NCBI RefSeq assembly: GCF_039888675.1
Contig: NZ_JBDQQR010000003.1
Span: 124,001 to 188,000, forward strand
Reading direction: 5' to 3'
Length of the DNA: 64,000 bases
Source of the DNA: Mesorhizobium sp. CAU 1732
GTDB taxonomy: Bacteria > Pseudomonadota > Alphaproteobacteria > Rhizobiales > Rhizobiaceae
The position numbers and the translations under genes were made by a program. Shown piece after piece: positions 40,908 to 63,716 of the stretch. Numbering within the stretch: position 1 is the first letter of the stretch; each line of letters starts with the position of its first letter. The notes under the pieces are model-generated. The model saw nothing but the letters and a program-made list of their open reading frames with translations. It did not search any database and had not been told where the DNA came from.

Positions 40908-41444
40908 ATGGCGGGCGCGAAAGCTTCGAGACTGAACAAGAACTCGAGCCAGAACGGCGGGGAACGGGCCGCATCTGACGCCGATCCGATATCCACCAAA
41001 AGCCTGGGCGAGATCGGCCTGCAGCAATTTGCGCCCTACCTGATGAACCGCATCATGGGCCGCTACAACCACACGCTGCGCGACGAACTGTCCAGCGCGG
41101 GCCTCACCACGCCGAAGATGCGTGCGCTGGCGATCCTGTCGATCATGGATGGCCTGAAGATCAACGAACTGGCGGTCTACGCGGTCGTCGAACAGTCGAC
41201 GCTCAGCCGCTCCCTCGACGCGCTCGAAACAGAGGGACTGATCCGGCGCGAAGCCCCGTCAGACGACAATCGGGTTCGCCACATCTTCATCACGGACCTA
41301 GGCCGGGGAACGTTCTCCGCTTTGTGGCCGACGATGTTCAGATCGTCGGAAGCCATGTTCACCGGCATCGACGTGGAGGAGCGCGAGCGCTTCGTCGGCA
41401 CACTTCATAAGATCCTGCGCAACATCAGAAAACACGACATCTAG
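40908..41444 (+). CDS. MarR family transcriptional regulator
   Basis: The 178-aa protein has a MarR winged helix (LTTPKMRALAILSIMDGLKINELAVYAVVEQSTLSRSLDALETEGLIRRE, with the wing EAPSDDNRVRHIFIT) and a longer, Ser/Asn-rich N-terminus. It lies 124 bp upstream of iorA in the same direction, with a 16-bp palindrome in the spacer, and likely represses the oxidoreductase genes until an aryl ligand is present. Confidence 0.93.
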   Translation: MAGAKASRLNKNSSQNGGERAASDADPISTKSLGEIGLQQFAPYLMNRIMGRYNHTLRDELSSAGLTTPKMRALAILSIMDGLKINELAVYAVVEQSTLSRSLDALETEGLIRREAPSDDNRVRHIFITDLGRGTFSALWPTMFRSSEAMFTGIDVEERERFVGTLHKILRNIRKHDI

Positions 41445-48166: not shown

Positions 48167-49168
48167 TCAGCGGCCGTAATAGGCTTTGCGCAGCGCGTCG
48201 TAATGCTCGCTGCCTGCCGCCTTCATGCGGGCCCACGCGCTTTCGAACGCCTGCTCGCGGAACGTGTCGGCGGCCTCACCTTCCAGCGTGATCACCGTCA
48301 TCCCCTTTTCCTTGACGCGCGCGTCGATCTCCGTCGCCATCGTCTGGAAATTCTCGTAGGAAATCTGCTCGTATTCCTCCGCGACGGCGGTGATAAGCGC
48401 GCGCGATTCTTCCGTCAGCGATTCCCATTTCGCGGGATTGATCACGACTGCAAGGTCGGTCTGGAAGACGCCCGGATCGATGCGGTAGCGCAGGAACTTG
48501 TCCCACGAGAGATCCTCGATGCCGATGATCGGCCATCCCGATCCGTCGAACGTGCTGCGCTCGAGACCGGTGTAGACGTCGGGAACCGGAACAGAGACCG
48601 GGATCGCGCCGATCTGCTCGAAGAACGCGTTGTAGATGGGCTGCGAACGGATACGCAGACCGGAAAGGTCCACGCCACCAGCTTCGGTGCGCTTCGGCTC
48701 ACCGATCGTATAGACGTGGAATTCCACGCCCGTATCGAGATGCGCGAGCAGTTCGACGCCGAGCTTGGTCTTGAATGCCCCCTGCATCAGCGCGAAGCCG
48801 CCATTCTCGCGGGCCTCCGCTGCGGTCACGGTCGAGCCGACCCAGGCATCCGCCTCGGGCATCGTGCCCAGATAGTAGGAGGCCGGGCCATACTGCATGT
48901 CGATCACGCCGCGGCGAACGGCATCGACCTGCTGGTTGGGCGGAAACATTTCCGGTCCGCCGGCATAGGTGATCTGAACCACGCCCTGCCCGCGCTCGTT
49001 GACGAGGTCGACAAAGCCCTTGAAGCTCTCGGAAAACGCCAAAGTCTGCGGGAAGGCAGAAATGGCGCGGATGGTGTCCTGCGCGCTGGCAGGCACACTC
49101 AACGCGGCGATGCCGGCGGTGGCTGTAAGAAGCGAAACTGCGGTACGTCTGGTGAAGGTAAGCGTCAT
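48167..49168 (-). CDS. TRAP transporter substrate-binding protein (DctP)
   Basis: The 333-aa protein has a signal peptide (residues 1-29; ends VPASAQ) and the DctP fold with the conserved SGLRIRSQPIYNAFFEQIGAIP region and the Arg that binds carboxylates. A ligand carrying a carboxylate is likely. It is the first gene of the second TRAP set, following the 3-hydroxyacyl-CoA-dehydrogenase-like gene by 58 bp, with GAGGAATG upstream of the ATG. Confidence 0.93.
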   Translation of the reverse strand: MTLTFTRRTAVSLLTATAGIAALSVPASAQDTIRAISAFPQTLAFSESFKGFVDLVNERGQGVVQITYAGGPEMFPPNQQVDAVRRGVIDMQYGPASYYLGTMPEADAWVGSTVTAAEARENGGFALMQGAFKTKLGVELLAHLDTGVEFHVYTIGEPKRTEAGGVDLSGLRIRSQPIYNAFFEQIGAIPVSVPVPDVYTGLERSTFDGSGWPIIGIEDLSWDKFLRYRIDPGVFQTDLAVVINPAKWESLTEESRALITAVAEEYEQISYENFQTMATEIDARVKEKGMTVITLEGEAADTFREQAFESAWARMKAAGSEHYDALRKAYYGR

Positions 49169-49226
49169 CTGTTCATTCCTCTGTCGGTTGATTGTCGGCT
49201 TTCCACCGATCTTGCGGGTTGATTGA

Positions 49227-50207
49227 TCAGGCTACGGGTGGGCGAACGAGCCCTGCTCCTTTCAGAGCCACGAGAAACGCTGCCATGCGCTTCTCGCGGT
49301 AGGCGTCGACGTCGACGCCCGCATAGTCGAAGAAGCCGGCCCCGGACTTCAGTCCGATGCGGCCCTTTTCCATGTTCTCGGAGATGATATCCGGCGGCGC
49401 GAAGCGTTCGTCCTCGAACGCCTTGGCCAGATAATTGCTCGCGTAATAGAGGATGTCGCCGCCGCCCCAGTCGATGAATTCGAGCAGCCCCAGCACGCCG
49501 AAGCGAAGCCCGAAACCGTAGGTCACGGCCTTGTCGACGTCCTCGGCGCTTGCCACCCCTTCCTCGACCAGCCGCGCGGCCTCGTTCATCGCCAGCGCCT
49601 GAATGCGCGGCACGATGAAGCCCGGCGATGCCTTGCAGACGATCGGCACCTTGCCGATGCTCTCCAGAAACGTCTTGGTCGCGGACAGAGTCTCCGGCGA
49701 GGTCTCGTCGGCCGGGCTGAGTTCGACCAGCGGCATCAGGAACGCCGGGTTGAGCCAATGCGCGTTCAGGAAGCGCTCGGGGTGACGCGTCAACTTCGCC
49801 AGATGCGTCGACAGCATCGTGGACGTGGTCGATGCCAGGATCGCATCGTCGCCGGCATGGGCGTCGAACAGCGCGAACGCGTCCCGCTTCGCGTCCTCGA
49901 CTTCCGGCACGCCCTCGAACACCAGCGTCACGTCGGTAAGTGCCGCCGCCGCGTCTTCGAGCGGCCAGACGGACACGCGCGAGAGGATCGTCGGCAGCAC
50001 ACCGGCGTCGAACGCACCAAGCGCCGCCATCGACGCCAGCGCCTGCTCGATCTCTTTCAGGGCATCCGCCTTGAACGTCTCGAAGGCCGCTGCATCGCGC
50101 GCCTTGGCATCCAGAAGGCGGATTTCATGCCCCGCATAGGCAACGCATTGCGCGATACCGCGCCCCATGCGTCCCGCACCGATGCAGCCTATGACGGCAC
50201 TATTCAT
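49227..50207 (-). CDS. 3-hydroxyacyl-CoA dehydrogenase family protein
   Basis: The 326-aa protein has the Rossmann motif GAGRMGRGIAQ (residues 10-20) and the HAD catalytic region NAHWLNPAFLMPLVEL with GFIVPRI. It resembles the smaller HAD-type enzymes that act on 3-hydroxyacids such as carnitine or L-gulonate as well as CoA esters. The ATG overlaps the upstream gene's stop by 1 nt. Its place in a TRAP operon suggests oxidation of an imported hydroxy acid. Confidence 0.88.
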   Translation of the reverse strand: MNSAVIGCIGAGRMGRGIAQCVAYAGHEIRLLDAKARDAAAFETFKADALKEIEQALASMAALGAFDAGVLPTILSRVSVWPLEDAAAALTDVTLVFEGVPEVEDAKRDAFALFDAHAGDDAILASTTSTMLSTHLAKLTRHPERFLNAHWLNPAFLMPLVELSPADETSPETLSATKTFLESIGKVPIVCKASPGFIVPRIQALAMNEAARLVEEGVASAEDVDKAVTYGFGLRFGVLGLLEFIDWGGGDILYYASNYLAKAFEDERFAPPDIISENMEKGRIGLKSGAGFFDYAGVDVDAYREKRMAAFLVALKGAGLVRPPVA

Positions 50208-51283
50208 CACAGGCCGTCCTGCAACATCGCCTGAACGTCCGCCCTGCCCTTTTCGGCCAGGCCGAGGCTTTCCAGCGTGCGCCCGTCCTTGCGGAAATCG
50301 CGCTCGGCGACCGCGCCCGCGACGGACAGGAGACCGGTCGCGACCGGGCATGGCACGCCAGCCCATTCGCCGACCGAGACCAGAAAGGCGAGGCCGAGGC
50401 CGACATCTTCCAGCATGTAGCGATGGTTCTTGAGATCAAGCGTCTCGTGCCAGTCGCCCGAACCGACCAGCTTGTCGTGTGCGAGGTTGCCATACATCCA
50501 GTCGCTGGTTTCGTAATGGTCCGCGAGCGGGAAATGCGGCGCGCCGTAGCCGAGCGCTTCGCGGATCGCGATGCGTTCATTGTCGAGCGCGGTGTGCGTG
50601 CGGCGGATCGCCGGCTGCGTGCCCTCGTTGTGGATGTCCCATTTGTCGAAATGCTCGATCGCGCCGGCATTCATCAGGATCAGCGGCGGGTGGATGATCG
50701 GCCCCGCATTCATCAGTGCGCCCGACAGCGCGTCCTCGACCGGTTCGATCGCGCCGGGAAACGCCTGCGAGATGATGTCGATCGCATGATCGGTCAGCCG
50801 CGCCGGCAGCACGCCGGTCGGCAGGCGCGACGCGCGCGTCGTGATACGGACCTCGAGTGAATTCTGCTTCCGCGTCAGCCACGGCAGCGTGCCGGTCTCC
50901 GCTATCGCGATATCGGCAGTCGAGCCCGCATCGCGAATCCGCTTCAGCATGATGTAGGAGCCGAAGGTGCCCGGCGGCAGATAAATGACCTGCCCATCGA
51001 CGAGATGGGCCGCCAGCGCCGTTGCCATGTCCTCCTGCGCAAAAGCCGGCGTCGGCGCGACGATCAGCGACGCGCCATCGATCGCGGCCTTGAGATCGTC
51101 GGTGGGCGATACGGCGACCTTGCGGCTGCCCTGGTGATCGGTGACGGTGATTGCGCCCGCTGCCGCGATGTCGGCGAAACTCGCGCGATCACGACGCCAC
51201 CATGCAACGTCGTGGCCGGCTTCGGTGAAATCCGCCACCGCCGCGTAAGAACCGTTTCCGCCACCCAGAACAGCAATCTTCAT
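50207..51283 (-). CDS. NAD/NADP octopine/nopaline dehydrogenase family protein
   Basis: The 358-aa enzyme has the N-terminal Rossmann motif AVLGGGNGSYAAVADF and the C-terminal octopine dehydrogenase helical domain with the NAGPIIHPPLILMNAG and HYETSDWMYGN segments. Members oxidise N-(carboxyalkyl) amino acids (opines) to an amino acid and a 2-oxo acid, or the reverse. ATG at 51283 has AGGGGG upstream. Gene order hints at opine-like or amino-acid-derived substrates for this operon. Confidence 0.9.
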   Translation of the reverse strand: MKIAVLGGGNGSYAAVADFTEAGHDVAWWRRDRASFADIAAAGAITVTDHQGSRKVAVSPTDDLKAAIDGASLIVAPTPAFAQEDMATALAAHLVDGQVIYLPPGTFGSYIMLKRIRDAGSTADIAIAETGTLPWLTRKQNSLEVRITTRASRLPTGVLPARLTDHAIDIISQAFPGAIEPVEDALSGALMNAGPIIHPPLILMNAGAIEHFDKWDIHNEGTQPAIRRTHTALDNERIAIREALGYGAPHFPLADHYETSDWMYGNLAHDKLVGSGDWHETLDLKNHRYMLEDVGLGLAFLVSVGEWAGVPCPVATGLLSVAGAVAERDFRKDGRTLESLGLAEKGRADVQAMLQDGL

Positions 51284-51314
51284 ATCAATCCCCCTTTGAA
51301 TATTCCGGCCATCG

Positions 51315-51758
51315 TCACGCCGATGCAGGCAGCACTGCCGTCGCCTCGATTTCGAGGAGCGCGTCAGCCTCGACCAGCCGCACCACCTGCACGGTCGCCA
51401 TCGCGGGGAAACTGCGCCCGAATACCTCGCGGTAGGCGCTCCCCAGCCCCTTCTGGTCGGCCATGTAGTCGTCGATGCTCGTGACGTACCAGGTGAGCCT
51501 AACGAGATGCTCGGGGCCAGCACCCGCCACCGCGAGCACGTCGCGAATGTTCAGGAATGTCTGGCGCGCCTGTGCCACAAAACCGTCCGCAAAGCGCCCG
51601 TCGCGATCCCACCCGACGAGACCACCGGTGAAAATCATCTGGCCTTGCGCGATCACGCCATTCGCATAGCCCTTCGGGACGGGCCAGCCTTCAGGCTGCA
51701 GGACACGATGCGTCAGGGATTGCGGCGCCTCCACGACGTCGTCGACAGGCTGGTTCAT
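51315..51758 (-). CDS. RidA family protein lacking the conserved Arg
   Basis: The 147-aa protein has the YjgF/YER057c/UK114 fold (GLVGWDRDGRFADGF, QTFLNIRDVLAVAGAG, ALLEIEATAVLP). The substrate-binding Arg of the archetypal imine deaminase RidA (Arg105, in PARSCVEV) is Met120 here, so 2-aminoacrylate deaminase activity is unlikely. Its ATG overlaps the marR stop by 4 nt. It probably acts in the pathway next to the octopine-dehydrogenase-like enzyme. Confidence 0.88.
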   Translation of the reverse strand: MNQPVDDVVEAPQSLTHRVLQPEGWPVPKGYANGVIAQGQMIFTGGLVGWDRDGRFADGFVAQARQTFLNIRDVLAVAGAGPEHLVRLTWYVTSIDDYMADQKGLGSAYREVFGRSFPAMATVQVVRLVEADALLEIEATAVLPASA

Positions 51759-52264
51759 TCGCCACTCTCCTCGGTGTCGATAACTGCATGGGGAGGATGC
51801 CCGTGCAGGCTGTTGATGCGCTTGAGAACGCCGATCAGGATATCGGCCTCCCCACGTGTGATCTGGGCCACGATTCCGGCCTCGTGATCCTTCGCGGCCG
51901 TCACGAGTTCGACCGCGAGCTTTTTGCCCTTTCCGGTGAGATAGACCCGCACCCTGCGTCGATCGCGCGCGTCGGACCGTCGCGTCACGAGATCGCGGGC
52001 GACCATCTGGTCGATGATCTTGGTGAGCCGGGACTGCTCCATCAGGGCAAGCGTCGCCAGTTGGGTGACCATCTGCCCGTCGGCGTCGGAAAGGCAGGCA
52101 AGCACACGCCATTCCGGCACCCGCACGCCCCGATCCCGCACCACCGCATGGAACTCCTCGCTGATGGCGTTGCTGGCGGCGGCGAGCAGATAGAGAAGAT
52201 AGTTCGAGACGAACCCATCCTCAGGAAGGTCGGGGCGCTTGTCTGGCGGAGGGTTCGTGCTCAT
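51755..52264 (-). CDS. MarR family transcriptional regulator
   Basis: The 169-aa protein has a MarR winged helix (LATLALMEQSRLTKIIDQMVARDLVTRR with the wing SDARDRRRVRVYLT). ATG at 52264 has GAGG 8 nt upstream. It lies inside the leftward TRAP operon, 10 bp after dctM, and probably controls this operon and perhaps the divergent oxygenase operon at 55.3 kb. Confidence 0.93.
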   Translation of the reverse strand: MSTNPPPDKRPDLPEDGFVSNYLLYLLAAASNAISEEFHAVVRDRGVRVPEWRVLACLSDADGQMVTQLATLALMEQSRLTKIIDQMVARDLVTRRSDARDRRRVRVYLTGKGKKLAVELVTAAKDHEAGIVAQITRGEADILIGVLKRINSLHGHPPHAVIDTEESGE

Positions 52265-52274
52265 GCCGGACACC

Positions 52275-53561
52275 TCACATCGAGTACGGGATAAGCAGCG
52301 CCATCGACGGAACCGCGATGAGCAACAGCAGGCGCAGGACGTCGACGATCACGAACGGCACGATGCCGACATACATGCGCTCGATCGGTATCTCCGGCGC
52401 GACCGAGCGCAGGACGAACAGGTTCATGCCGATCGGCGGCGTGATGTAGCTCAGTTCGGCTGCGACCACGACGAAGATGCCGAACCAGATCGGGTCGAAA
52501 CCGAGCCCGGTCACGATCGGAAACAGGATCGGTACGGTAAGCGTGATCATCGACAGGCTTTCGAGCAGGCAGCCCAGAACCAGATAGATGACCACGATCG
52601 ACAGAATGACCTGATACGGGCCGGCACCGAGCGCATTGACCCATCCACGCAGGTCCGTGGTGAGACCCGAGAAATTGACGTAGTTCAGGAAATACAGCGC
52701 ACCGAACAGGATGAAGAACATCACCGCTGTGGTCTTCGCCGTATCGAACAACGTCGTCAGCGTCTCGCGCAGTGTCAGCTTTCCGCGTGCGGCCGTCAGC
52801 AGCATTGCGCCCGCGGCGCCGACGCCCGCGGCCTCTGTGGCCGTGAAGATGCCGACATAGATGCCGCCGAGCACGCATGTAAACAGAAGCAGCGCCCACA
52901 CGACACCCTTGAGCGCGCGGAAGCGCTCGATCAGCGGCAGTTTTGGCAGGACCTGAAGGTCCTCCTTGTACATCACCAGCGACAGGCGAACGGCCAGCAC
53001 ATAGCCGATGATGCCGATCAGCCCGGGCAGCAATCCGGCGAGAAAGAGCATCCCGATATTCTGCTGCGTCAGGATGCCGTAGATGACGAGGATGACCGAT
53101 GGCGGGATGAGAATGCCCAGCGTCCCCCCTGCCGCGACCGACGACGCCGCCAGCCGGTCGGAATAGCCGAAGCTGCGCATGGCGGGCAGCGAGATACGGG
53201 CCATCGTTGCGGCGGTTGCAAGCGACGAACCGCAGACCGATGAGAACCCACCGCATGCGACGATCGTCGCCATGGCGAGCCCGCCTTTGCGGTGCCTGAG
53301 CCAGGCATTCGCAGCCGTGTAAAGATCCTGCGCGACGCCGGACTGGACGACGAAATTGCCCATCAGCAGAAACAGCGGCACCACCGACAGCGTGTAGCTG
53401 CGCCCCGCGTCGAAATAGGTCTGCCCGATCAGCGACAGCGCCGGCTGCCAGCCGATGATCGAGGCAACACCGACGAGCCCGACGCCAGCCATCGCGAACG
53501 CGATCGGCATGCCGGCGAACATCAGAAGCATCATGAGTGTTATGCCGAGAGGCCAGGCCAT
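52275..53561 (-). CDS. TRAP transporter large permease (DctM)
   Basis: The 428-aa protein is a 12-helix DctM subunit (GGTLGILIPPSVILVIYG, TATEAAGVGAAGA). Its start overlaps the DctQ stop by 1 nt. It is the first of two complete TRAP permease sets in this operon. Confidence 0.94.
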   Translation of the reverse strand: MAWPLGITLMMLLMFAGMPIAFAMAGVGLVGVASIIGWQPALSLIGQTYFDAGRSYTLSVVPLFLLMGNFVVQSGVAQDLYTAANAWLRHRKGGLAMATIVACGGFSSVCGSSLATAATMARISLPAMRSFGYSDRLAASSVAAGGTLGILIPPSVILVIYGILTQQNIGMLFLAGLLPGLIGIIGYVLAVRLSLVMYKEDLQVLPKLPLIERFRALKGVVWALLLFTCVLGGIYVGIFTATEAAGVGAAGAMLLTAARGKLTLRETLTTLFDTAKTTAVMFFILFGALYFLNYVNFSGLTTDLRGWVNALGAGPYQVILSIVVIYLVLGCLLESLSMITLTVPILFPIVTGLGFDPIWFGIFVVVAAELSYITPPIGMNLFVLRSVAPEIPIERMYVGIVPFVIVDVLRLLLLIAVPSMALLIPYSM

Positions 53562-54073
53562 CAGATGCCTCCCTCGCGTCCACGCGACAGGCGCAGGCAG
53601 GCCATGACAAACGTCGCGAGCGACGAGACCCCGGCGATCACCGCCGCGCCCTTGCAGAACGGCGCGAGCGGCATGCGCAGAAACACCGTCACCTCATTAT
53701 AGGTCGCAAGCCGGACCGCGTGCTCCCACAACTGCCACGCAACGATCGCCAGGACGACCGACACGGCAAGCCTCGCCGAGGCAAGCTGGACGGCTGCGAG
53801 CCAGCCCGTGAACTTCGACGTGAACAGATCCACGCTGACGTGTCCGTCGTCTAGGCACACCGCCGGCAGTCCGGTGAAGATGATCGCCATCAGGAGCAGT
53901 TCCGTATATTCGGGCGCGCCGGGCAGAGGCCGCAAGAGAAGGTAGCGTCCGAACACATCGACTACGGTCACGAAGGTCAGGGCGATGAGCAGCGAACCGC
54001 ACAGGAGCGCGGTCGCCAATCTCAGACCCTTCCGAACCCTCGTCGCGAGAGCTTCGGTCGGGGCGGGGGTCAT
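53561..54073 (-). CDS. TRAP transporter small permease (DctQ)
   Basis: The 170-aa protein has four transmembrane helices with DctQ sequence features (LIALTFVTVVDVFGRYLL, DDGHVSVDLFTSKF). It overlaps both neighbours (1 nt with dctM, 4 nt with dctP), so the TRAP subunits are translationally coupled. Confidence 0.93.
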   Translation of the reverse strand: MTPAPTEALATRVRKGLRLATALLCGSLLIALTFVTVVDVFGRYLLLRPLPGAPEYTELLLMAIIFTGLPAVCLDDGHVSVDLFTSKFTGWLAAVQLASARLAVSVVLAIVAWQLWEHAVRLATYNEVTVFLRMPLAPFCKGAAVIAGVSSLATFVMACLRLSRGREGGI

Positions 54074-55095
54074 TCCGCCTCGACTGCCTTCACTTCGGTG
54101 AGAAGCTTTTCATGAAGCGCCTCGAAGTCCAGGCCCTTGGCTTCGTATTTCGCCGCCACGTCGTCGAAGATCGGCTGGGCGGCTTCGCGCAGCGCGGTCA
54201 TCTCCTCCTCGGTCGCGTCGTGATAGGTGACCGTGTCCTTGATGATTTCGGCGCCTGCAGCGTCCGCGCGATCCCAGGCCTGGCCGGCCATGCGCGAGAA
54301 TGCCTCACCGGAAATCGAGTCGATCGCGGCCCTGTCTTCCTCGGACAGGCTGTCATATTTTGCCTGGTTCATGACGAAGAAGAACGAGGAATTGTAGAGA
54401 CCGCCAGGAGCTCGCAGCGCGGTGTCGACGAGCGCTTCGATCTTGAAGAACGGCACGGATTCGATCGGGAAGAAGATGCCGTCGGCAACGCCGCTCGACA
54501 GAATTTCGTAGGATTGCGGCGACGGAGCCTGGATGGAAACCATGCCGAGCCGGTCTGCGAGCATCCCCATCACGCCATTGCCGATGCGGATTTTCGCCCC
54601 GGAAAGTTCATCGAGAGGGGTGACCGGCCGTCCCTTGGTGAAGAGCAGGCCGGGCCCGTGGGTGAACACGCCGATCACCTTCGTGCCGCGATGCTCTCCA
54701 GCCTCCGCAAGGTCGCTCTCGTAGAGGCGCTGGAAGGCCACCGAGAGAGTTTCCGCCGAATCCGCGAGGAACGGAAGTTCGGCGATTTCGGTCAGGCTGA
54801 AGCGGCCGGGCGTGTAGCCGTGCACGCTGAAGGTCAGGTCGGCGACACCGTTCGCGGCCAGATCGAAATGCGCCGGCGGCGGCCCAAGCGGCGCGTCGAG
54901 GATTTGCACGGTGACGCGTCCGTCGGTCGCCTCCTTGAGCTGTTCGGCCCAGGGCATCACCATATCCTTGACGATCGGATGCGAGGCAGGAAGCCAGTTG
55001 GACAGGCGCAGAACCGTCTCCTGCGCGGACGCAGAGACACTCATTGCCAGAAAGAAAATAGATGCATTCGCAATTTTCTTGAAAGCTGAGCTCAC
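54070..55095 (-). CDS. TRAP transporter substrate-binding protein (DctP)
   Basis: The 341-aa protein has a signal peptide (residues 1-24; ends VSASAQ) and a DctP domain with HGYTPGRFSLTEIAELPF and FTHGPGLLFT, similar in pattern to the orphan binding protein at 10.2 kb. The start is GTG with AGGGGAA upstream. It is the first gene of the leftward operon and is divergent from the oxygenase operon, so the imported compound may be the oxygenase substrate. Confidence 0.93.
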   Translation of the reverse strand: MSSAFKKIANASIFFLAMSVSASAQETVLRLSNWLPASHPIVKDMVMPWAEQLKEATDGRVTVQILDAPLGPPPAHFDLAANGVADLTFSVHGYTPGRFSLTEIAELPFLADSAETLSVAFQRLYESDLAEAGEHRGTKVIGVFTHGPGLLFTKGRPVTPLDELSGAKIRIGNGVMGMLADRLGMVSIQAPSPQSYEILSSGVADGIFFPIESVPFFKIEALVDTALRAPGGLYNSSFFFVMNQAKYDSLSEEDRAAIDSISGEAFSRMAGQAWDRADAAGAEIIKDTVTYHDATEEEMTALREAAQPIFDDVAAKYEAKGLDFEALHEKLLTEVKAVEAE

Positions 55096-55199
55096 CGTGG
55101 TTCCCCTTTTTTGTCGGCAGCACTAACCAAATGCTGACACAGCTCAAATCACTCTTCAAGCTTAAAACGATGAAATTGCATCTAATGCCGTTCGAGCCA

Positions 55200-55229: not shown

Positions 55230-55296
55230 CCTCGAATGGAGGAGGCTTGTGCGCCTCGACCCGGCAACCGCCAGAACAAGAGCGGAGGTAAAGCAC

Positions 55297-56262
55297 ATGT
55301 CGCATCTGCGGCTGAAGGTCCTCGAGGCCGAACCGATCACTGCGCGCATCCGCAGCGTGGTGCTTGTTGCGGAGGATGGATCGTCCCTGCCCGGCTACAC
55401 CGCCGGTGCGCACATCCGCATCCAGCTACCGGCGGGCGGCGAGCGCCACTATTCGCTGATCAACACCGATTCAACGACGGATACGACCCGTGGCGTCCAG
55501 AGCTACAGGCTCGGAATTCTGCTCGAGGAGGCCGGCACCGGGGGCTCCCGCTACATGCATGATCTGGCGGTCGGCGATGTCATCACGGTAGCACCGCCAA
55601 AGAACGACTTCTCCGTCGCCACCCATGACGGCCCCGCCATCCTGATCGCCGGCGGCATAGGCGTCACGCCCATCGTCGCGATGGCCGCCGAGTTGAAGCG
55701 CGCGGACCGGCCATTCGAGTTCCACTACAGCGGCCGCTCCCGCACGCTCATGGCATTCGTGGAAGATATCAGCGAAGCCTGCGGTGACGCATTGCGCGTC
55801 TATTGCGACGACGAGGACGGCAACTGCATTGATCTGGAGCGCCTGACGAAATCCCTCGCCACGGACGCCCACATCTATGTCTGCGGGCCGCGCGGCATGA
55901 TCGAGGCCGCGCGTGAGCGTGCGCTGGCGCAGGGTTTCGCCAAGGAGTGCATCCATTTCGAACTGTTCGAGCGCGTCGAAGAGCAGGCCGGCGACAAGCC
56001 CTTCGAGGTTGAAATCTCGTCCACCGGCCAAATCTTCACCGTGCCGCCCGGCAAGACCATCATCGAGATCCTCGAAGAAGGCGGCGTCGACCTGATCTAC
56101 GACTGCCAGCGCGGCGATTGCGGCATCTGCCAGACCACGGTGATCAAGGGCATTCCCGACCACCGGGACGTCATCCTGACCGACGACGAACGCGCATCCA
56201 ACGACGTGATGCAGATTTGCGTGTCGCGCGCGCTGTCGCCCAAACTCGTACTCGACCTGTAA
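55297..56262 (+). CDS. Oxygenase reductase, FMN and 2Fe-2S (VanB/phthalate dioxygenase reductase type)
   Basis: The 321-aa protein has the FMN-binding motif RHYSLIN (50-56), a NAD-binding domain (AGGIGVTPI, 118-126, and CGPRGM) and a C-terminal plant-type [2Fe-2S] domain with C270, C275, C278 and C308. It passes electrons from NADH through FMN and Fe-S to the Rieske oxygenase encoded next. ATG at 55297 has GGAGGTAA upstream. First gene of the rightward catabolic operon. Confidence 0.93.
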   Translation: MSHLRLKVLEAEPITARIRSVVLVAEDGSSLPGYTAGAHIRIQLPAGGERHYSLINTDSTTDTTRGVQSYRLGILLEEAGTGGSRYMHDLAVGDVITVAPPKNDFSVATHDGPAILIAGGIGVTPIVAMAAELKRADRPFEFHYSGRSRTLMAFVEDISEACGDALRVYCDDEDGNCIDLERLTKSLATDAHIYVCGPRGMIEAARERALAQGFAKECIHFELFERVEEQAGDKPFEVEISSTGQIFTVPPGKTIIEILEEGGVDLIYDCQRGDCGICQTTVIKGIPDHRDVILTDDERASNDVMQICVSRALSPKLVLDL

Positions 56263-56288
56263 CCTCCAAGCACAGGGGAACGCCCGTC

Positions 56289-57623
56289 ATGAGCCGTTAT
56301 GCCAATGACACCGCCGCCATCGAGGCCCTTGTCCGGCCGACCGAGGTGCATCGCGACATCTACATCGACGAGGACGTGTTCAAGCTGGAGATGAAGCATC
56401 TCTTCGCCAACACCTGGGTGTTCGTCGGTCACGACAGCCAGACGCCGAACAAGGGCGACTACTTCACGACTGAGATCGGCACCCAACCCGTCATCATGGT
56501 GCGCCACTCCGACGACCAGATCTACGTGCTGCACAATCGCTGCCCCCACAAGGGCACCAAGATCGCGATCGACCGGGCGGGCAATACGGGCAAGTTCTTC
56601 CGCTGCCCCTATCATGCGTGGTCGTTCAAGACGAACGGGTGCCTGCTCGCGATCCCGCTGCGCAAAGGCTACAAGGATACCGGCCTCGAAGAGAGCCATT
56701 CCGTCAACGGCATGGCGCCCGTCGGGGCCGTGAAGAACTATCGCGGCTTCGTCTTCGCAAGGCTCGCAAAGGACGGCATCGACTTCGACACCTTCTTCGG
56801 CAACGCCCTGAGCTCGATCGACAACATGGTCGATCGCTCGCCGGCCGGGCGTCTCGAAGTCTCCGGCCCGCCGCTCCGCTACATGCATCGCTGCAACTGG
56901 AAGATGCTGGTCGAAAACCAGACCGACACCTGCCATCCGATGGTCGCGCATGAAAGCTCTGCCGGCACCGCGATCGATCTGTGGGAAAAAATGGACAAGC
57001 CGGAGGGCACGAAGACCCCTATGGCGATGGAAGTCATCGCGCCCTTCATGTCGTCCTACGAATTCTTCGAGAACATGGGCATCCGCACATGGCCGAACGG
57101 CCATGGCCACACCGGCGTGCATCACTCGATCCACTCCGACTACTCGGCCATCCCTGGCTATTTCGAACAGATGGTCGAAGCCTATGGCGAGGAAAAGGCG
57201 CGCGCGATCCTCGGCGAGAGCCGGCACAACACGATCTATTTCCCCAACATCATGATCAAGGGGCCGATCCAGCAGCTTCGTCTGTTCAAGCCGATCTCGG
57301 CCGGCAGGACGCTGGTCGAGAGCTACATCTACCGTCTGGTCGACGCCCCCGACATGCTGGTCGAGCGCACCGCCATGTACAACCGCCTGATCAACGCCCC
57401 GACCTCGATGGTCGGGCACGACGATCTCGAAATGTACGAGCGCGCGCAGGAGGGGCTTCATTCGGACGGCCTCGAATGGGTCAACGTCCAGCGCCTCTAC
57501 GTTGAAGGCGAGGACTTCGAGGACGAGGCGATCGAGAACGGCACGACCGAACGCCAGATGCGCAACCAGTTCCATGCCTGGACAAAATACATGACGATGA
57601 GCATGGACGGAGGCGCACGATGA
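56289..57623 (+). CDS. Rieske ring-hydroxylating oxygenase, alpha subunit
   Basis: The 444-aa protein has the Rieske motif CPHKG with CPYHAW (C85, H87, C106, H109) and the mononuclear iron motif N210-x2-D213-x2-H216-x4-H221. It activates O2 to hydroxylate or dihydroxylate an aromatic or heteroaromatic ring. The reductase precedes it by 26 bp and the beta subunit follows with a 4-nt overlap, as in a two-component alpha-beta oxygenase. Confidence 0.95.
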   Translation: MSRYANDTAAIEALVRPTEVHRDIYIDEDVFKLEMKHLFANTWVFVGHDSQTPNKGDYFTTEIGTQPVIMVRHSDDQIYVLHNRCPHKGTKIAIDRAGNTGKFFRCPYHAWSFKTNGCLLAIPLRKGYKDTGLEESHSVNGMAPVGAVKNYRGFVFARLAKDGIDFDTFFGNALSSIDNMVDRSPAGRLEVSGPPLRYMHRCNWKMLVENQTDTCHPMVAHESSAGTAIDLWEKMDKPEGTKTPMAMEVIAPFMSSYEFFENMGIRTWPNGHGHTGVHHSIHSDYSAIPGYFEQMVEAYGEEKARAILGESRHNTIYFPNIMIKGPIQQLRLFKPISAGRTLVESYIYRLVDAPDMLVERTAMYNRLINAPTSMVGHDDLEMYERAQEGLHSDGLEWVNVQRLYVEGEDFEDEAIENGTTERQMRNQFHAWTKYMTMSMDGGAR

Positions 57624-58102
57624 CCTTCCCGTCGCGCGACGATCTGATCGACTTCGTCTACGACGAGGCCCGCATGCTCGATGACGGGCGCTTCGACGAG
57701 TGGCTTGCCCTGTGGAAGCCGGACGGCATGTACTGGATGCCGCTCGACTACAACCAGCAGGACGCGAAGCATGTGACCTCGCTGCTGCATGAGGATTTCT
57801 TCATGATCAAGCTGCGCGTCGAACGCTTCAAGGGCGAGCGTACTTTCTCGCAGAAGCCGAAAACCCGCTGCCATCACGTCATCCAGCGGCCGTTCATCGA
57901 GGAGGTCGATCACGAGGCGGGACGTTTCGTCACGCACACGCCGTTCCACTATGTCGAGACGCGCCTGGACGACCAGACATTGCTGGCGGCCAATGCGCGC
58001 CACGAACTGGAGCTGGTCGACGGTGCCTTGAAGATCAGGCTCAAGCGGGTCGATCTTCTCAACTGCGACGCCGCCTTCGGCAACATCCAGATGTTCCTGT
58101 GA
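57620..58102 (+). CDS. Ring-hydroxylating oxygenase, beta subunit
   Basis: The 160-aa protein has the NTF2-like small-subunit fold: LIDFVYDEARMLDDGRFDEWLALW near the N-terminus, then MYWMPLDYNQ and CHHVIQRPFIEEVD. The beta subunit stabilises the alpha3beta3 hexamer. It overlaps the alpha gene by 4 nt. Confidence 0.93.
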   Translation: MTFPSRDDLIDFVYDEARMLDDGRFDEWLALWKPDGMYWMPLDYNQQDAKHVTSLLHEDFFMIKLRVERFKGERTFSQKPKTRCHHVIQRPFIEEVDHEAGRFVTHTPFHYVETRLDDQTLLAANARHELELVDGALKIRLKRVDLLNCDAAFGNIQMFL

Positions 58103-58116
58103 GGGAGTTGGCAACC

Positions 58117-59757
58117 GTGGCAGGACAAATCCCGGATGACGCAACGGTCTACGGCGCGGTCAAGTCGGCGTCGGAGCGGTTCGGCGCGCGCGATTTCCTG
58201 AACGTCCTTCCGGAAACCGCGGCAGTCTACGGCATCGAGCCGCGCGCATGGACCTACGCGCAGGCATTCGCGGAGATCGAGCGTCTTCGTCTGGCCTATG
58301 AGGCGGCTGGCTACCGCGCTGGTGGCCGCGTAATGCTCCTGATGGAGAATCGCCCGGCCTTCTTCCTGCACTGGTTTGCGCTGAATGCGCTGGGCCTGTC
58401 GGTCGTGCCGGTCAACCCGGACCTGCAATCGTCCGAACTCGACTACATGGCGGGCCATGCCGAGCCCGTGCTCGCCGTAGCGATCGCCGCGCGCGTCTCC
58501 GACCTTGAAAAGGCGAGCGCGTCATCGGGCGTCGGATTTCCGGTGATCACGCCGGAGGATGCACCGCCTCCCCTCTCCGACCACCTGGCCGGTTTCTGCA
58601 AGGATGCATCTGCAACCCCGCTGCGCCGCGAGGCGGCGATGCTCTACACCTCCGGCACGACCGGGAAGCCCAAGGGCTGCGTCCTGTCGAACCTCTATTT
58701 CCTCGCGGCGGGCCGTTGGTATGCCGATGCCGGCGGCTATTGCAGCCTGACGGAAGATGGCGAGCGCATGATCACGCCGTTGCCGATCTTCCACATGAAC
58801 GCCATGGCCTATTCACTGATGGCGATGGTCTCGGTCGGCGGATGCCTCACCGCGCTCGATCGTTTCCACCCGCGAAGCTGGTGGCAAAGTGTGCGTGACA
58901 GCAAAGCGACCTGCCTGCACTATCTCGGCGTCATGCCGTCCATGTTGATGAAAGCCGAACCCTCCGCCGCCGACCGCGACCATGCGGTGCGCTTCGGATT
59001 CGGCGCGGGCATCGATCCGAAGCTTCACGGCCCGTTCGAGGATCGTTTCGGCATTCCGCTCGTCGAAGCGTGGGCGATGACGGAGACCGGCGCCGGCGCG
59101 GTGATCGCGGCAAACCACGAGCCGCGCAAGCGCGGCACGAGCTGCCTTGGTCGCACGCGCGACGGCGTCGAGGCGCGGATCGTCACCGACGCCGGCGAGG
59201 ATGCGGCTCCGGGCGAACCCGGCGAACTGCTCGTCCGCCATGCCGGCGAAGACCCGCGCTACGGCTTCTTCACCGAATACTACAAGAACGCGGACGCCAC
59301 CGCCGAGGCATGGGACGGCGGCTGGTTCCACACCGGCGATATCGTCGCCCGCGACGCCGACGGCGACGTCTTTTTCGTCGACCGCAAGAAGAACGTCATC
59401 CGCCGCTCCGGCGAAAACATCGCGGCCGTCGAGGTCGAATCGATCCTGATGCAGCACCCCGACGTCCGGGCCGCCGGTGTCGCCGCACTGCCGGACGAAC
59501 TGCGCGGCGACGAGGTCTTCGCCTGCCTCGTCGTCGATGGCGGCGGCGACGAGGCCAAGGCGCGCGCGATCGTCTCATGGTGCCTTGAGCGCGTCGCCTA
59601 CTACAAGGCGCCCGGCTATATCGCCTTCGTCGACGCCCTGCCGCTGACCGCGACCCAGAAGATCCAGCGCAGCGAACTGAAAGGTCTCGCCGCACGTCTC
59701 GCGCTCGATCCCGCGACGGTGAACACCTGCGCGATGAAGAAGCGGCAGGCAGCCTAG
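58117..59757 (+). CDS. AMP-dependent CoA ligase (ANL superfamily)
   Basis: The 546-aa enzyme has the AMP-binding P-loop YTSGTTGKPKG, the adenylate motif and C-terminal FFVDRKKNVIRRSGENI hinge and core. It activates a carboxylic acid as an acyl-CoA. The GTG at 58117 with GAGGGAG 9 nt upstream is chosen; a GTG at 58099 overlapping the beta-subunit stop would add 6 residues. Its place after the oxygenase suggests activation of the oxygenated, perhaps ring-opened, acid. ATG of the thiolase-like gene follows directly after its stop. Confidence 0.92.
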   Translation: MAGQIPDDATVYGAVKSASERFGARDFLNVLPETAAVYGIEPRAWTYAQAFAEIERLRLAYEAAGYRAGGRVMLLMENRPAFFLHWFALNALGLSVVPVNPDLQSSELDYMAGHAEPVLAVAIAARVSDLEKASASSGVGFPVITPEDAPPPLSDHLAGFCKDASATPLRREAAMLYTSGTTGKPKGCVLSNLYFLAAGRWYADAGGYCSLTEDGERMITPLPIFHMNAMAYSLMAMVSVGGCLTALDRFHPRSWWQSVRDSKATCLHYLGVMPSMLMKAEPSAADRDHAVRFGFGAGIDPKLHGPFEDRFGIPLVEAWAMTETGAGAVIAANHEPRKRGTSCLGRTRDGVEARIVTDAGEDAAPGEPGELLVRHAGEDPRYGFFTEYYKNADATAEAWDGGWFHTGDIVARDADGDVFFVDRKKNVIRRSGENIAAVEVESILMQHPDVRAAGVAALPDELRGDEVFACLVVDGGGDEAKARAIVSWCLERVAYYKAPGYIAFVDALPLTATQKIQRSELKGLAARLALDPATVNTCAMKKRQAA

Positions 59758-60939
59758 ATGGCATCTTGCTTTCAGCGACGAGGTTATGACGGCGTCGTGC
59801 TCGCGGCACCGGCGACCGTGCCTTACGAGCGCTTCTCGACGCAGACCGCGCATTGGTGGATCGCGCGCGCACTATCCGCATCTATAAGACAGGCCGGCCT
59901 GTCACCGCAGGAGATCGACGGATTCTCCGTATCGAGCTTCAGCCTGTTCCCCGACACCGCCGTCGGGTTGACCCAGCATCTCGGCCTGTCGCCGCGCTGG
60001 CTGGACCATATCCCGATGGGCGGCGCGAGCGGCATTGCAGCGATCAGGCGCGCGGCACGTGCCGTACAGGCGGGTGACGCGCGCGTCGTTGCCTGCGTCG
60101 CGGGCGACACCAACCACGTCGACAGTTTTCGCCGCATGCTGTCGAGCTTCTCGCGCTTTGCACAGGACGCGTCCTATCCCTACGGGGCCGGCGGTCCCAA
60201 CGCCTGCTTCGCGCTCCTGACCGACCATTACATGACGGCCTACGGCGCGACCCGCGAGGATTTCGGCCGCATCTGTGTCGCCCAGCGCGCCAATGCGCTC
60301 AAAAATCCCCATGCGGTGATGAAATCTCCGCTCACGATGGATCAATATCTCTCGGCCCGCATGATCTCCGACCCGATCGCGCTGTTCGATTGCGTCATGC
60401 CGGTCGCAGGTTCCGAAGCGTTCCTTGTCATGCGCGAGGACGACGCGAAGGCCGCCGGCATCCCCTACGCCCATATCCGCTCGACGATCGAGCGCCACAA
60501 CGCGTTTCCCGAGGACCCGATCCAGATGCGCGGCGGCTGGGCGATGGACATCGATGAACTCTATGCAATGGCCGACGCGAAGCCGGCCGACATGGACCTT
60601 TTGCAGACCTATGACGACTACCCGGTGATCTCGATGATGCAGGTCGAGGATCTGGGCTTCTGCGCGAAGGGAGAAGGCCCGGCCTTCCTGCGGGACCGCG
60701 ATCTCACCGTCGACGGCGACCTGCCACACAACACCTCTGGCGGGCAGTTGTCCGCCGGACAGGCGGGCGCGGCCGGCGGTTTCATCGGCCTCGTGGAAGC
60801 GATCCGGCAGGTGACCGGGACCGCAGGCCCGACGCAGGTGAAGGACGCAACGACCGCGCTCGTATCCGGCTTCGGCATGATCAATTACGATCGTGGCGTC
60901 TGCTCCAACGCGGCGATCATCTCCGGGACGAACGCATGA
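59758..60939 (+). CDS. Thiolase-like protein without catalytic Cys (retro-aldolase candidate)
   Basis: The 393-aa protein has the thiolase fold (GGPNACFALL, HNTSGGQLSAGQAG, NYDRGVCSN). The nucleophile position (xxCASG in thiolases) is MGGASG with Gly89, and the GHP His is replaced in SAGQAG (Gln335); the later Cys382 remains. Tyr285 and Tyr288 in TYDDYP are of the kind seen in Ltp/SCP-x-like aldolases. With the adjoining DUF35 partner it resembles the Ltp2-ChsH2 steroid side-chain retro-aldolase, so non-thiolytic C-C cleavage of a 3-hydroxyacyl-CoA is inferred. Confidence 0.88.
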   Translation: MASCFQRRGYDGVVLAAPATVPYERFSTQTAHWWIARALSASIRQAGLSPQEIDGFSVSSFSLFPDTAVGLTQHLGLSPRWLDHIPMGGASGIAAIRRAARAVQAGDARVVACVAGDTNHVDSFRRMLSSFSRFAQDASYPYGAGGPNACFALLTDHYMTAYGATREDFGRICVAQRANALKNPHAVMKSPLTMDQYLSARMISDPIALFDCVMPVAGSEAFLVMREDDAKAAGIPYAHIRSTIERHNAFPEDPIQMRGGWAMDIDELYAMADAKPADMDLLQTYDDYPVISMMQVEDLGFCAKGEGPAFLRDRDLTVDGDLPHNTSGGQLSAGQAGAAGGFIGLVEAIRQVTGTAGPTQVKDATTALVSGFGMINYDRGVCSNAAIISGTNA

Positions 60940-62189
60940 CGACACCCATCGCGCCGCCGCCGAAAAAGAACCCGCAGACGCGAGCCCGCTCGCCGTCCCA
61001 GCCCGAAAAGGCGCGCAGCCGCGCAGCCCTCGGCCTGACGGCCGCAGCCGCCGAAGGTCGGTTCATGCTGCAATGCTGTACCGAATGCGGCACGCTGCAA
61101 TATCCGCCCCGCGATGCCTGCCAGCGCTGTCTGGGCATCGACCTGCAGTGGCAGGATGTGCCGCCGTCCGGCAAGCTGATCGCAGAGACGACGGTGCGCA
61201 CCAGCACGAACGTCTATTTCCGTGAACGCACGCCATGGCGTGTCGGCACGGTCCTGCTCGATGCCGGGCCGTCGATCATGTGCCATCTCCATGGCGACGT
61301 CGAGCGCGGTGCGCGCGTGACACTCGTCAACCGCCTCGACCGTTCCGGTCGCGGCGTCATCCTTGCCATGCCGACGACGCCAACGCCCCATATGGAGGAC
61401 GATCCGATCGTGCGCGAACTGAGCTGCGACCCGAAATTCCGGCGCATCCTGATCACGGATGCGCGCAATGAAAACACAGTCGCGCTTGCCCGCGCGCTGG
61501 CCGATGCCGGCGCCTCGGCGATCTTCGTCGGTGAATCGGAAAGCTGGCGGCCCTACCCGCACCGCGATCAGCTCGCCGACATGCCCAAGGTCTCCATCCT
61601 GCCGCTCGACGTGACCGACATTCGATCCGTGAACGAACTCTGCGGCGAGATCGGCGGCAAGGTCGATATCCTCGTCAACAATGCGCGCTTCATGCGACCG
61701 GGCGGCATCATGGATCGCGGCGACACGGTCTTTGCGCGCGAGGAGTTCGAGGTGAACGTGCTCGGCCTGATGCGCCTTGCGCAGACTTTCGGCCCGGCGA
61801 TGCGCGGTCGCGGCGCGGACGGCACCAACAGTGCCGTGGCGTGGGTCAATCTCCTGTCGGTCTACGCCTATTCCAACATGCCCGCCTTCGGTTCGTTCTC
61901 CGCATCGAATGCGGCGGCCATGTCGGCCTCGCAATGCCTGCGCGCGGAATTCGCGCCCGGCTGCATACGTGTCATGAACGTCTATGCCGGGCCGACCGAC
62001 GATGAGTGGCACCAGCCGCTTCCGCCACCCAAGGTCGCGCCCTCGGCGCTCGCCAAAGCCGTCGTCGCGGGTCTCCGGGACGGTCTCGAAGACGTCTATG
62101 TCGGCGACGTCGCGAAAGACTTCATCGAGCGCTGGCGGCAGGGGCCGAAAGTGCTCGAACTGGAAATGACGTCTGGAGGTGGAGCATGA
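60936..62189 (+). CDS. DUF35 OB-fold/Zn-ribbon fused to a pseudo-SDR domain
   Basis: The 417-aa protein has two parts. Residues about 40-150 are a DUF35 (ACP-like rubredoxin plus OB) domain with the zinc ribbon C48, C51, C62 and C65. Residues about 168-410 are an SDR domain with VNNARFMRPGG, but the Rossmann glycine motif is degenerate (TDARNENTV) and the YxxxK pair is F321-SAS-N325, so catalysis is lost. DUF35 proteins partner thiolase-like enzymes. The ATGA start overlap with the thiolase-like gene supports a complex. The fusion is unusual. Confidence 0.88.
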   Translation: MTTPIAPPPKKNPQTRARSPSQPEKARSRAALGLTAAAAEGRFMLQCCTECGTLQYPPRDACQRCLGIDLQWQDVPPSGKLIAETTVRTSTNVYFRERTPWRVGTVLLDAGPSIMCHLHGDVERGARVTLVNRLDRSGRGVILAMPTTPTPHMEDDPIVRELSCDPKFRRILITDARNENTVALARALADAGASAIFVGESESWRPYPHRDQLADMPKVSILPLDVTDIRSVNELCGEIGGKVDILVNNARFMRPGGIMDRGDTVFAREEFEVNVLGLMRLAQTFGPAMRGRGADGTNSAVAWVNLLSVYAYSNMPAFGSFSASNAAAMSASQCLRAEFAPGCIRVMNVYAGPTDDEWHQPLPPPKVAPSALAKAVVAGLRDGLEDVYVGDVAKDFIERWRQGPKVLELEMTSGGGA

Positions 62190-62986
62190 ACATGCCGAAC
62201 GGAACCGAACTCCTCGGCCAGATGGGTGTTGCGATCGCCACTGGCGCGATCGAGGTCGTCGATCTCACGCACACGCTCGACCCGGATTTTCCTGTCATCG
62301 TCCTGCCGCCGGAATTCGGCCAGTGCGCGCGGTTCCGCATGGAGGAGATTTCCGCCTACGATCATCGCGGCCCCGCCTGGAAGTGGAACAACTTCACCTG
62401 CGGCGAGCATACGGGCACGCATTTCGACGCCCCGTCGCACTGGATTTCCGGCCGCGACGTGCCGAACGGCAGCGTCGATACGATCCCCGTCGAAAACTTC
62501 GTCGGACCGGTCTGCGTAATCGATTGCTCGCAGGGCGCCAGCACGGACGATGATTTCGAGCTGACGCCGGACATCATTCTTGGCTGGGAAAAGACCCATG
62601 GCCGCATCCCGGCGCAAAGCTGGGTTCTCATGCGCACCGACTGGTCGAAACGCCGCGGCGCGGCCTATCTCAACATGCGCGACGATGGCCCGCACTCGCC
62701 CGGCCCGACGCCTGAGGCGATGCGCCTGCTCGTCGATGAGCGCGGCGTGCGTGGTTTCGGTACGGAGACGGTCGGCACCGATGCGGGCCAGGGCGCGCAC
62801 TACACCCCGCCCTACCCCGCGCATTTCTACCTGCACGGCGCGGGCCGCTACGGCCTGCAGTGCCTCAACAATCTCGACCGCCTCCCGCCGACCGGCGCGA
62901 TGCTGATCGCGACACCGTTGAAGATCAAGCAGGGAACCGGCAGCCCGTTGCGCGTCATTGCGCTCGTTCCGGGACAAGGGAACTGA
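62186..62986 (+). CDS. Cyclase family metal-dependent hydrolase (kynurenine formamidase / isatin hydrolase-like)
   Basis: The 266-aa protein has the cyclase-family metal motif HTGTHFDAPSH (H75, H79, D81, H85) that binds zinc or manganese in kynurenine formamidase and isatin hydrolase. The family hydrolyses amides or lactams, including the indole-2,3-dione ring. It overlaps the DUF35-SDR gene by 4 nt with GGAGGTGGAGC upstream. In this operon it could open a lactam made by the oxygenase. Confidence 0.9.
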   Translation: MNMPNGTELLGQMGVAIATGAIEVVDLTHTLDPDFPVIVLPPEFGQCARFRMEEISAYDHRGPAWKWNNFTCGEHTGTHFDAPSHWISGRDVPNGSVDTIPVENFVGPVCVIDCSQGASTDDDFELTPDIILGWEKTHGRIPAQSWVLMRTDWSKRRGAAYLNMRDDGPHSPGPTPEAMRLLVDERGVRGFGTETVGTDAGQGAHYTPPYPAHFYLHGAGRYGLQCLNNLDRLPPTGAMLIATPLKIKQGTGSPLRVIALVPGQGN

Positions 62987-62987
62987 G

Positions 62988-63716
62988 ATGAGCGAGACCT
63001 ACACGGCCATCATCACCGGCGGCAACAAGGGCATCGGCGCGGATCTGGCGCAGCGCATGCTCGGCGAAGGCTACCACGTGATTTCGGTCGCGCGACGCCC
63101 GCCAGACTTCACGCATGACAGGCTCTCGTCGGTCGAGGCCGACCTTCTCGATCCTCAGGCGGTGAAGGAGGCGGCGTCGGAGATCGCGGCGAACCACGAC
63201 GTGTCGCATCTGATCCACAATGCCGGACTGATCTGGCCGAACCTCGTGGAAGAAGCGAAACCCGAGGACATCACCGGCCTTGCCCAGCTTCATCTCGGAT
63301 CGGCGCTCACCCTGCTTCAGGCCGTGCTGCCCGCCATGAAGGCGCGTCGTTTCGGGCGCGTGATGTTCAACGCGTCACGCGCGGCACTGGGTGCGCCCAC
63401 GCGCACCGCCTACAGCGCCTCGAAAGCCGGCATGATCGGCATGGCGCGGACATGGGCGCTCGAACTCGCCAAACATCAGATCACGGTGAACGTCGTCGCA
63501 CCCGGCCCGATCCTCACCGACAATTTCTGGGGCATCGTGCCGAAGGGCAGCGACGCCGAAAGCACGCTCGCCACCCGCATTCCGGTCGGTCGTCTCGGCA
63601 CCGTCGAGGACGTCACCAACGCCTTCATGTTCTTCTCGGACCCGAGGAACGGCTTCGTCACCGGCCAGACGCTTTACGTCTGCGGCGGCGCGAGCGTCGG
63701 AACCCTCCAAATCTGA
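62988..63716 (+). CDS. SDR family oxidoreductase (intact catalytic triad)
   Basis: The 242-aa classical SDR has TGGNKGIG (10-17), a HNAG motif near residue 77, and the catalytic S130, Y142 and K146 (TAYSASK), plus C-terminal VTGQTLYVCGG. It is the only clearly active SDR of the operon and could pair with the pseudo-SDR domain of the fusion protein, as BbsC and BbsD pair in benzylsuccinate degradation. It follows the cyclase gene by 1 bp. Confidence 0.92.
   Translation: MSETYTAIITGGNKGIGADLAQRMLGEGYHVISVARRPPDFTHDRLSSVEADLLDPQAVKEAASEIAANHDVSHLIHNAGLIWPNLVEEAKPEDITGLAQLHLGSALTLLQAVLPAMKARRFGRVMFNASRAALGAPTRTAYSASKAGMIGMARTWALELAKHQITVNVVAPGPILTDNFWGIVPKGSDAESTLATRIPVGRLGTVEDVTNAFMFFSDPRNGFVTGQTLYVCGGASVGTLQI

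Follow-up and report, generated by a model that had tools for sequence, protein, structure and literature searches.

How do bacteria that carry iad loci remove the side chain of auxin (indole-3-acetate)? This question is raised by eight genes of Mesorhizobium sp. CAU 1732, which lie in a stretch of 64,000 nucleotides (hereafter the window; assembly GCF_039888675.1, contig NZ_JBDQQR010000003.1, positions 124,001-188,000, from a genome of 5.44 Mb in six contigs). The eight genes are iadCDEFGHIJ, an auxin degradation operon of a kind familiar from root bacteria and already published from Variovorax. The operon itself is known, and the point of interest lies in the assignment of its side-chain step, which has so far been attributed from annotation to a thiolase (IadG) and a dehydrogenase (IadH); the sequences compared here argue against both labels. 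We propose, with good confidence, that the IadG-IadH pair would split the auxin side chain by a retro-aldol reaction, giving isatin and acetyl-CoA. It also appears rather likely that the pair constitutes a third kind of retro-aldolase built on a thiolase fold and dependent on DUF35, marked by a YDDY site, a dead dehydrogenase partner and a tertiary 3-hydroxyacyl-CoA substrate, dioxindole-3-acetyl-CoA, converted to the same two products. In plant microbiomes, root growth is affected by the auxin degradation that iad loci encode, and these loci are being moved into other bacteria (PMC12633357).

IadG has a thiolase fold without thiolase residues

A scan of species genomes with IadG yielded 518 relatives, and the comparison was continued with the 80 best loci; counts out of 80 refer to these and counts out of 81 to these plus the window. 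Thiolases, whether SCP2 or classical, possess a nucleophilic cysteine and the histidines of the HDxF and GHP motifs, and neither feature is found in IadG. The nucleophile position (Gly89) is glycine in 81/81 aligned sequences, a cysteine being present at position 91 in one of them, and the window protein holds seven cysteines at other positions. The YDDY motif and its Tyr285 are kept in all 81, as is a glutamine at the place of the GHP histidine, whereas 7yvy and BbsB have HDAF and GHP where IadG has YDDY and GQA. Proven aldolases carry YDHF or YDCY at the YDDY position, and IadG groups in the tree with the aldolase CtSal.

These features are shared with the steroid side-chain retro-aldolases Ltp2-ChsH2(DUF35) and Sal-Shy(DUF35) (PMC12329534), namely a thiolase fold devoid of the nucleophilic cysteine, a base tyrosine in a YDxx motif and a linked zinc-finger DUF35 partner with its four zinc cysteines, to which a 3-hydroxyacyl-CoA substrate and the release of acetyl-CoA (as by Sal) would be added on the side of the window. 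The differences concern the motif itself, the expected substrate, which is an oxindole rather than a steroid, and the DUF35 partner, which is fused to a dead dehydrogenase domain in the window but to a MaoC domain in Shy. IadG would work like Ltp2 and Sal, but is filed as neither. The benzoylsuccinyl-CoA thiolase BbsAB also combines a thiolase-fold subunit with a DUF35 partner, but the motifs of BbsB given above set it apart.

The signature YDD[Y/F] with GQ also occurs at loci L093-L097, L119 and L120, in proteins that are 33-44% identical to IadG and have no recognised iad neighbours in the stretch examined. Weak matches lie near some of them (to F or H in L094 and L119, to J in L095), and the proteins of L119 and L120 each adjoin a distinct gene whose annotation is zinc-ribbon or OB-fold protein. 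The neighbours in L119 include an acyl-CoA ligase, an acyl-CoA-dehydrogenase-like gene and a flavin reductase. These proteins may be aldolases for other substrates; if the retro-aldol proposal is true, the wider YDD group, including the members without iad neighbours, would consist of unrecognised aldolases.

A dead dehydrogenase domain in IadH and an active one in IadJ

The DUF35 part of IadH comprises the zinc ligands Cys48, 51, 62 and 65 and a Pfam OB fold at residues 72-132, followed by a short-chain dehydrogenase/reductase (SDR) domain at about residues 165-400. This domain lacks the residues that define an active SDR: YxxxK is found in 0/79 readable rows (two further rows end at contig edges) and GxxxGxG in 0/81. 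The 50 proteins listed against the structural model of the whole IadH were SDR proteins. The sequence of IadH argues against its published label of alcohol dehydrogenase. In IadJ, counted column by column, YxxxK is kept in 70/70 readable rows and TGxxxGxG in 72/72 rows. One idea is that the dead dehydrogenase domain of IadH is paired with the active IadJ.

The original prediction, made from the DNA letters, had described a Cys-less thiolase, a pseudo-SDR fused to DUF35 and an active SDR as the last gene. All three descriptions agree with the alignments, with the qualification that IadG is Cys-less at the nucleophile position only; a true cysteine nucleophile, named there as one of the results that would overturn the idea, did not appear when the alignment was run.

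IadI and the proposed retro-aldol route

The gene that follows indicates what the pair should produce. Over 252 residues, IadI shares 79.8% identity with a characterised enzyme, the isatin hydrolase A of Labrenzia (Roseibium) aggregata (PDB 5NNA/5NNB), for which assays with isatin and a structure with isatinate are available (PMC6117287). It has the same HxGTHxDxPxH metal motif, and no function-relevant difference was found between the two; kynurenine formamidases match IadI at 9e-7 or weaker. The iadI product of an iad operon in Roseibium aggregatum is itself 96.8% identical to isatin hydrolase A over 252 residues, which ties this well-studied enzyme to its likely physiological operon. With IadI assigned through its close identity to an isatin hydrolase, the enzymes that precede it should make isatin.

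In Variovorax, genetics and tracing were read by their authors as IadCDE placing one oxygen atom on indole-3-acetate, dioxindole-3-acetate arising through oxidation of the hydrated product by IadJ, and IadF, G, H and I then being required for normal anthranilate formation (PMC12633357). Cultures of Variovorax have been reported to contain isatin (PMC9613470). We hypothesise that the overall route would run from auxin through dioxindole-3-acetate and its CoA ester to isatin and acetyl-CoA, then to isatinate and anthranilate. IadF would make dioxindole-3-acetyl-CoA, and IadG, bound to the DUF35 part of IadH, would cleave it by a retro-aldol reaction. The tertiary hydroxyl at C3 would be deprotonated by Tyr285, the bond between C3 and CH2 would break, and the acetyl-CoA enolate would be protonated, perhaps via Asp287, with the help of Gln330 and Gln335. 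Isatin and acetyl-CoA would leave with the use of neither a redox cofactor nor a thiolase cysteine, and the SDR half of IadH would be structural only. IadI would then open isatin to isatinate, with CO2 lost on the way to anthranilate. Atoms and electrons balance in the retro-aldol conversion of dioxindole-3-acetyl-CoA to isatin and acetyl-CoA. The proposal offers a cofactor-free step with a named product and named residues, testable with three purified proteins; if true, it would fill the central step of the iad route and explain an isatin hydrolase as the next gene.

We consider the retro-aldol idea well supported and likely. It had been part of the original prediction, which also argued that oxidation of a tertiary alcohol cannot yield a 3-ketoacyl-CoA. 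That argument is sound and is kept, and the cleavage by a Cys-less thiolase with DUF35 is supported by the invariant glycine, the YDDY motif, the grouping with CtSal and the DUF35 gene that comes next in 80/80 loci. The dioxindole-3-acetate-type intermediate and the CoA activation step are likewise supported, but the predicted route lacked the second oxidation, by IadJ, before the CoA step.

Several points weigh against this proposal. The absence of the cysteine was rejected as a proof of aldolase function by itself: among loci L085-L120, 24 hold relatives at ≤44% identity, with position 89 being Gly in 23/24, Ser in 1/24 and Cys in 0/24, and these include YDAF, YDCF and YDSF types of unknown function. 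Three of the 24 have a cysteine at position 90 (L096, L097, L107) and three at position 92 (L105, L108, L111). Because Cys-less relatives of other motif types are common, the aldolase argument is drawn jointly from the motif, the partner, the neighbouring gene and the chemistry of the substrate. The catalytic acid of the known retro-aldolases is not found either, Gln335 occupying the place of Tyr344 (Ltp2) and Asp287 that of Cys304 (Sal). In CtSal, Cys304 is required and could be replaced by none of Ala, Ser and His; since IadG has Asp at this place and is devoid of the second tyrosine of TcLtp2, its acid is undefined by homology. Furthermore, the tree places CtSal on a long branch, its identity in the fold match is 31%, and the set of sequences compared did not comprise IadG and IadH of V. 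paradoxus CL14.

The metabolites point the same way. C8H7NO2 (dioxindole, with two hydrogens more than isatin) accumulates in the Variovorax iadI deletion, as well as in a strain that carries iadCDEFGH-JK2, and IadFGH has been read as a reductive removal (PMC12633357). Dioxindole is also present in wild-type cultures (PMC9613470), and an older Bradyrhizobium scheme places it before isatin (PMC9613470; PMC8383072). If the retro-aldol cleavage holds, dioxindole would have to arise on the side, through reduction of isatin by some other enzyme. These observations favour the published assignment, in which IadG as a ketothiolase and IadH as an alcohol dehydrogenase, family names that both proteins carry by annotation, would act with IadF to remove the side chain reductively and yield dioxindole. 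We nevertheless hold this assignment to be unlikely: the thiolase nucleophile is missing in 81/81 IadG, the SDR catalytic pair in 79/79 readable IadH and the nucleotide loop in 81/81, the tertiary alcohol is unable to become a 3-ketoacyl-CoA, and close identity marks the enzyme supposed to use the product as an isatin hydrolase. The word "aldol" is absent from the main text of PMC12633357, PMC9613470, PMC8383072 and PMC10374108, and no earlier retro-aldol proposal for auxin or isatin metabolism was found in the open literature searched, with supplements and subscription papers, including Jensen 1995, outside the search.

The oxygenase, the regulator and the substrate

The nearest solved proteins to IadD in a search of the PDB are 7yls and 9o71 (Table 1), the next match reaching only 5e-38. 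The IadDE of V. paradoxus corresponds to 9o71 (PMC12633357). We take 7yls for the IadD described in PMC10374108, given that the 14 residues which this paper names all occupy the stated numbers in 7yls, its code being absent from the text. IadD is identical to 7yls at 244/439 positions (56%) and keeps 13 of the 14 metal and auxin-pocket residues, the exception being Leu211, replaced by Gln; the best match of the adjacent IadE is the small subunit of the same complex (7yls_A). The linked MarR regulator at 51755-52273 is identical at 66/103 positions to 3CDH, a Ruegeria regulator that binds auxin with a KD of 0.237 uM (PMC9613470). At the seven auxin-contact positions of Variovorax MarR_73 it equals 3CDH at 7/7 and MarR_73 at 5/7, the latter including all three that hold the carboxylate. 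It is thus predicted to sense auxin.

The eight-gene order, the oxygenase and MarR matches and the marker genes iadA/iotA and iadB/iorB of iad-like loci (PMC9613470), represented by indolepyruvate oxidoreductase (IOR) alpha- and beta-like genes about 10 kb upstream (41569-45272; the alpha below the curated cut-off of its model), identify the window locus as an iad locus, a known kind. The original prediction of indole-3-acetate as substrate, and of a likeness to iad loci that pair a Rieske oxygenase with a MarR regulator, is borne out by these matches. It seems very unlikely that the operon acts here on another indolic acid, such as a substituted auxin. The Gln at position 211 would fit such a change, as would the neighbouring transport genes, the one ABC binding protein examined beside the operon being sulfonate-binder-like, not named as IadK2, and a TRAP system adjoining iadC; but all remaining pocket residues and MarR auxin contacts are kept, and the C2 side chain on C3 suits a retro-aldol to acetyl-CoA and isatin. 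The order of steps first predicted, with the lactam opened by the cyclase-family enzyme before CoA activation and a retro-aldol giving acetyl-CoA and isatinate directly, would produce isatinate in one step with the same enzymes and agrees with the rise of C10H9NO4 in the iadI deletion (PMC12633357), but is scarcely probable, given that this deletion still forms the C8 compound, so that IadI acts after side-chain loss (PMC12633357), and that IadI is so close to a characterised isatin hydrolase; of that prediction the ring opening by IadI stands and its early placing does not.

Gene order and distribution among relatives

The eight frames are open, all on the + strand between 55297 and 63716, with a first gap of 26 bp and 4-bp overlaps or gaps of 0-2 bp thereafter. 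IadI has two candidate ATG starts (62186 and 62192), the first of which overlaps the iadH stop as ATGA and is preceded by a GGAGG-type site. IadF is 57% identical to the gene at the same place in a Variovorax-like locus (L131). The predicted operon, its families and its tight spacing are thereby confirmed, and of the two clusters proposed for comparison of gene content, iad matches in its eight genes and their order while Bbs differs in motif (HDAF/GHP vs YDDY/GQA).

Compared with the iad locus of V. paradoxus CL14 (iadC-iadK2; PMC12633357, PMC10374108, PMC9613470), the window has the same eight gene kinds in the same order, with F-J downstream of the oxygenase genes as published, a Rieske IadDE pocket identical but for one residue, an IadR-type MarR and iadA/iadB-like IOR genes nearby. 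It differs by the TRAP transporter beside the operon, with the nearest ABC binding protein resembling sulfonate binders, and by the linkage of a 3-hydroxyacyl-CoA dehydrogenase, an octopine-dehydrogenase-family protein and a RidA protein.

The full order CDEFGHIJ recurs in 57/80 of the best relatives, a recurrence that we judge not to be due to chance. With identity limits applied, the genes are present in the 80 loci as follows: G 80, H 80 (in all directly after G), I 78, F 73, E 67, J 67, D 66 and C 64; the two loci without I stop inside H, and the other absences are partly due to cut loci. Complete iad operons are found on plasmids of Roseibium, Paracoccus and Ruegeria, and relatives of IadG and IadD also on Sulfitobacter plasmids. 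In the class sample, IadG finds a match at E ≤ 0.001 in 133/289 genomes, but identity reaches ≥60% in only 8, a number that includes the genome of the window. In the phylum sample, an IadD relative at E ≤ 1e-60 is present in 8/398 genomes; six of these were followed (all but G000 and G504, the latter with IadD at 42%), and five have IadG (60-69%) and IadI (60-66%), whereas in G586 IadG is absent and the cyclase match is only weak (36%). Three genomes that belong to one genus (G484, G468, G384) have G-H-I in a separate unit about 19-33 kb from C-D-E-J. Some loci hold G-H-I without C-D-E in the available stretch, in L045 and L048 beside IOR-type genes, recognised by eye from translation starts.

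Two further loci are mentioned for their arrangement. The Variovorax-like genome L131 contains two IadDE pairs about 10 kb apart (5191-6477 and 15029-16339), whose IadD are 47% and 56% identical to that of the window. On an Agrobacterium pusense plasmid (L116), an IadG-H-I set at 5483-12198 has no Rieske genes in the 19 kb examined; as a guess, the thiamine-pyrophosphate-binding enzyme beside it could decarboxylate isatinate.

Transporters and flanking genes

Table 1. Coordinates of the iad operon and neighbouring genes in the window
Feature	Position	Strand	Supporting match
IadC, oxygenase reductase (PDR/VanB type)	55297..56262	+	Pfam Fer2, NAD_binding_1
IadD, Rieske oxygenase large subunit (alpha)	56289..57623	+	Pfam Rieske + Ring_hydroxyl_A; 7yls_B E 4e-169, 9o71_A E 1e-168
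IadE, oxygenase small subunit (beta)	57620..58102	+	Pfam Ring_hydroxyl_B; 7yls_A E 2.4e-46
IadF, acyl-CoA ligase, GTG start	58099..59757	+	AMP-binding E 2.5e-58
IadG, thiolase-fold protein, proposed retro-aldolase	59758..60939	+	Pfam Thiolase_C_1; Gly89, Y285-D-D-Y, Gln330, Gln335
IadH, DUF35 fused to SDR domain without catalytic residues	60936..62189	+	Pfam zf-ChsH2 + OB_ChsH2_C + adh_short
IadI, isatin hydrolase by homology	62186 or 62192..62986	+	Pfam Cyclase; 5nnb E 2e-147; HTGTHFDAPSH
IadJ, SDR with catalytic residues kept	62988..63716	+	Pfam adh_short_C2; TGxxxGxG, Y142/K146
MarR-family regulator, IadR type, predicted auxin-responsive repressor	51755..52273	-	best PDB match 3cdh E 1.3e-43
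TRAP transporter (DctM, DctQ, binding protein), divergent from iadC	52275..55095	-	DctM, DctQ, TRAP_S1
MarR-family regulator beside IOR genes	40908..41444	+	best PDB match 3cjn E 5e-51; next 7kym
Indolepyruvate oxidoreductase alpha-like, candidate IadA/IotA	41569..43722	+	IOR_alpha E 4.8e-86; 289 bits vs curated cut-off 651
Indolepyruvate oxidoreductase beta family, candidate IadB/IorB, putative start	43719..45272	+	PRK08312 696 bits, cut-off 348; POR, DUF6537
Asp/Glu-racemase-family protein	45482..46255	-	
Second TRAP system, permease	46262..47581	-	
Second TRAP system, binding protein	48167..49168	-	
3-hydroxybutyryl-CoA dehydrogenase	49227..50210	-	PRK08269, above its cut-off
Octopine-dehydrogenase-family protein	50207..51292	-	
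RidA-family protein	51315..51737	-	

The TRAP transporter next to iadC may be considered a candidate auxin uptake system, and the same TRAP neighbours are annotated in Paracoccus saliphilus. The three-gene ABC transporter downstream of the operon was considered as the IadK2 auxin importer and rejected, its binding protein matching sulfonate-type binders (best PDB match 2x26, E 3.6e-26); it lies on the opposite strand and was excluded from the operon, no genome-wide search for IadK2 having been made. A search for a MarR-operator palindrome 5' of iadC (55096-55297) returned only one weak inverted repeat, at 55112-55139, with 8-base arms and one mismatch.

The stretch between the IOR genes and the MarR gene (45482-51737, - strand) is filled by the last six genes of Table 1. 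According to its annotation, the iad operon of Paracoccus saliphilus (L117) is also flanked by both dehydrogenases and two TRAP systems. Downstream of the window (L004, 6757-13581), a frame of 2274 residues contains many glycine-aspartate-rich repeats of RTX look.

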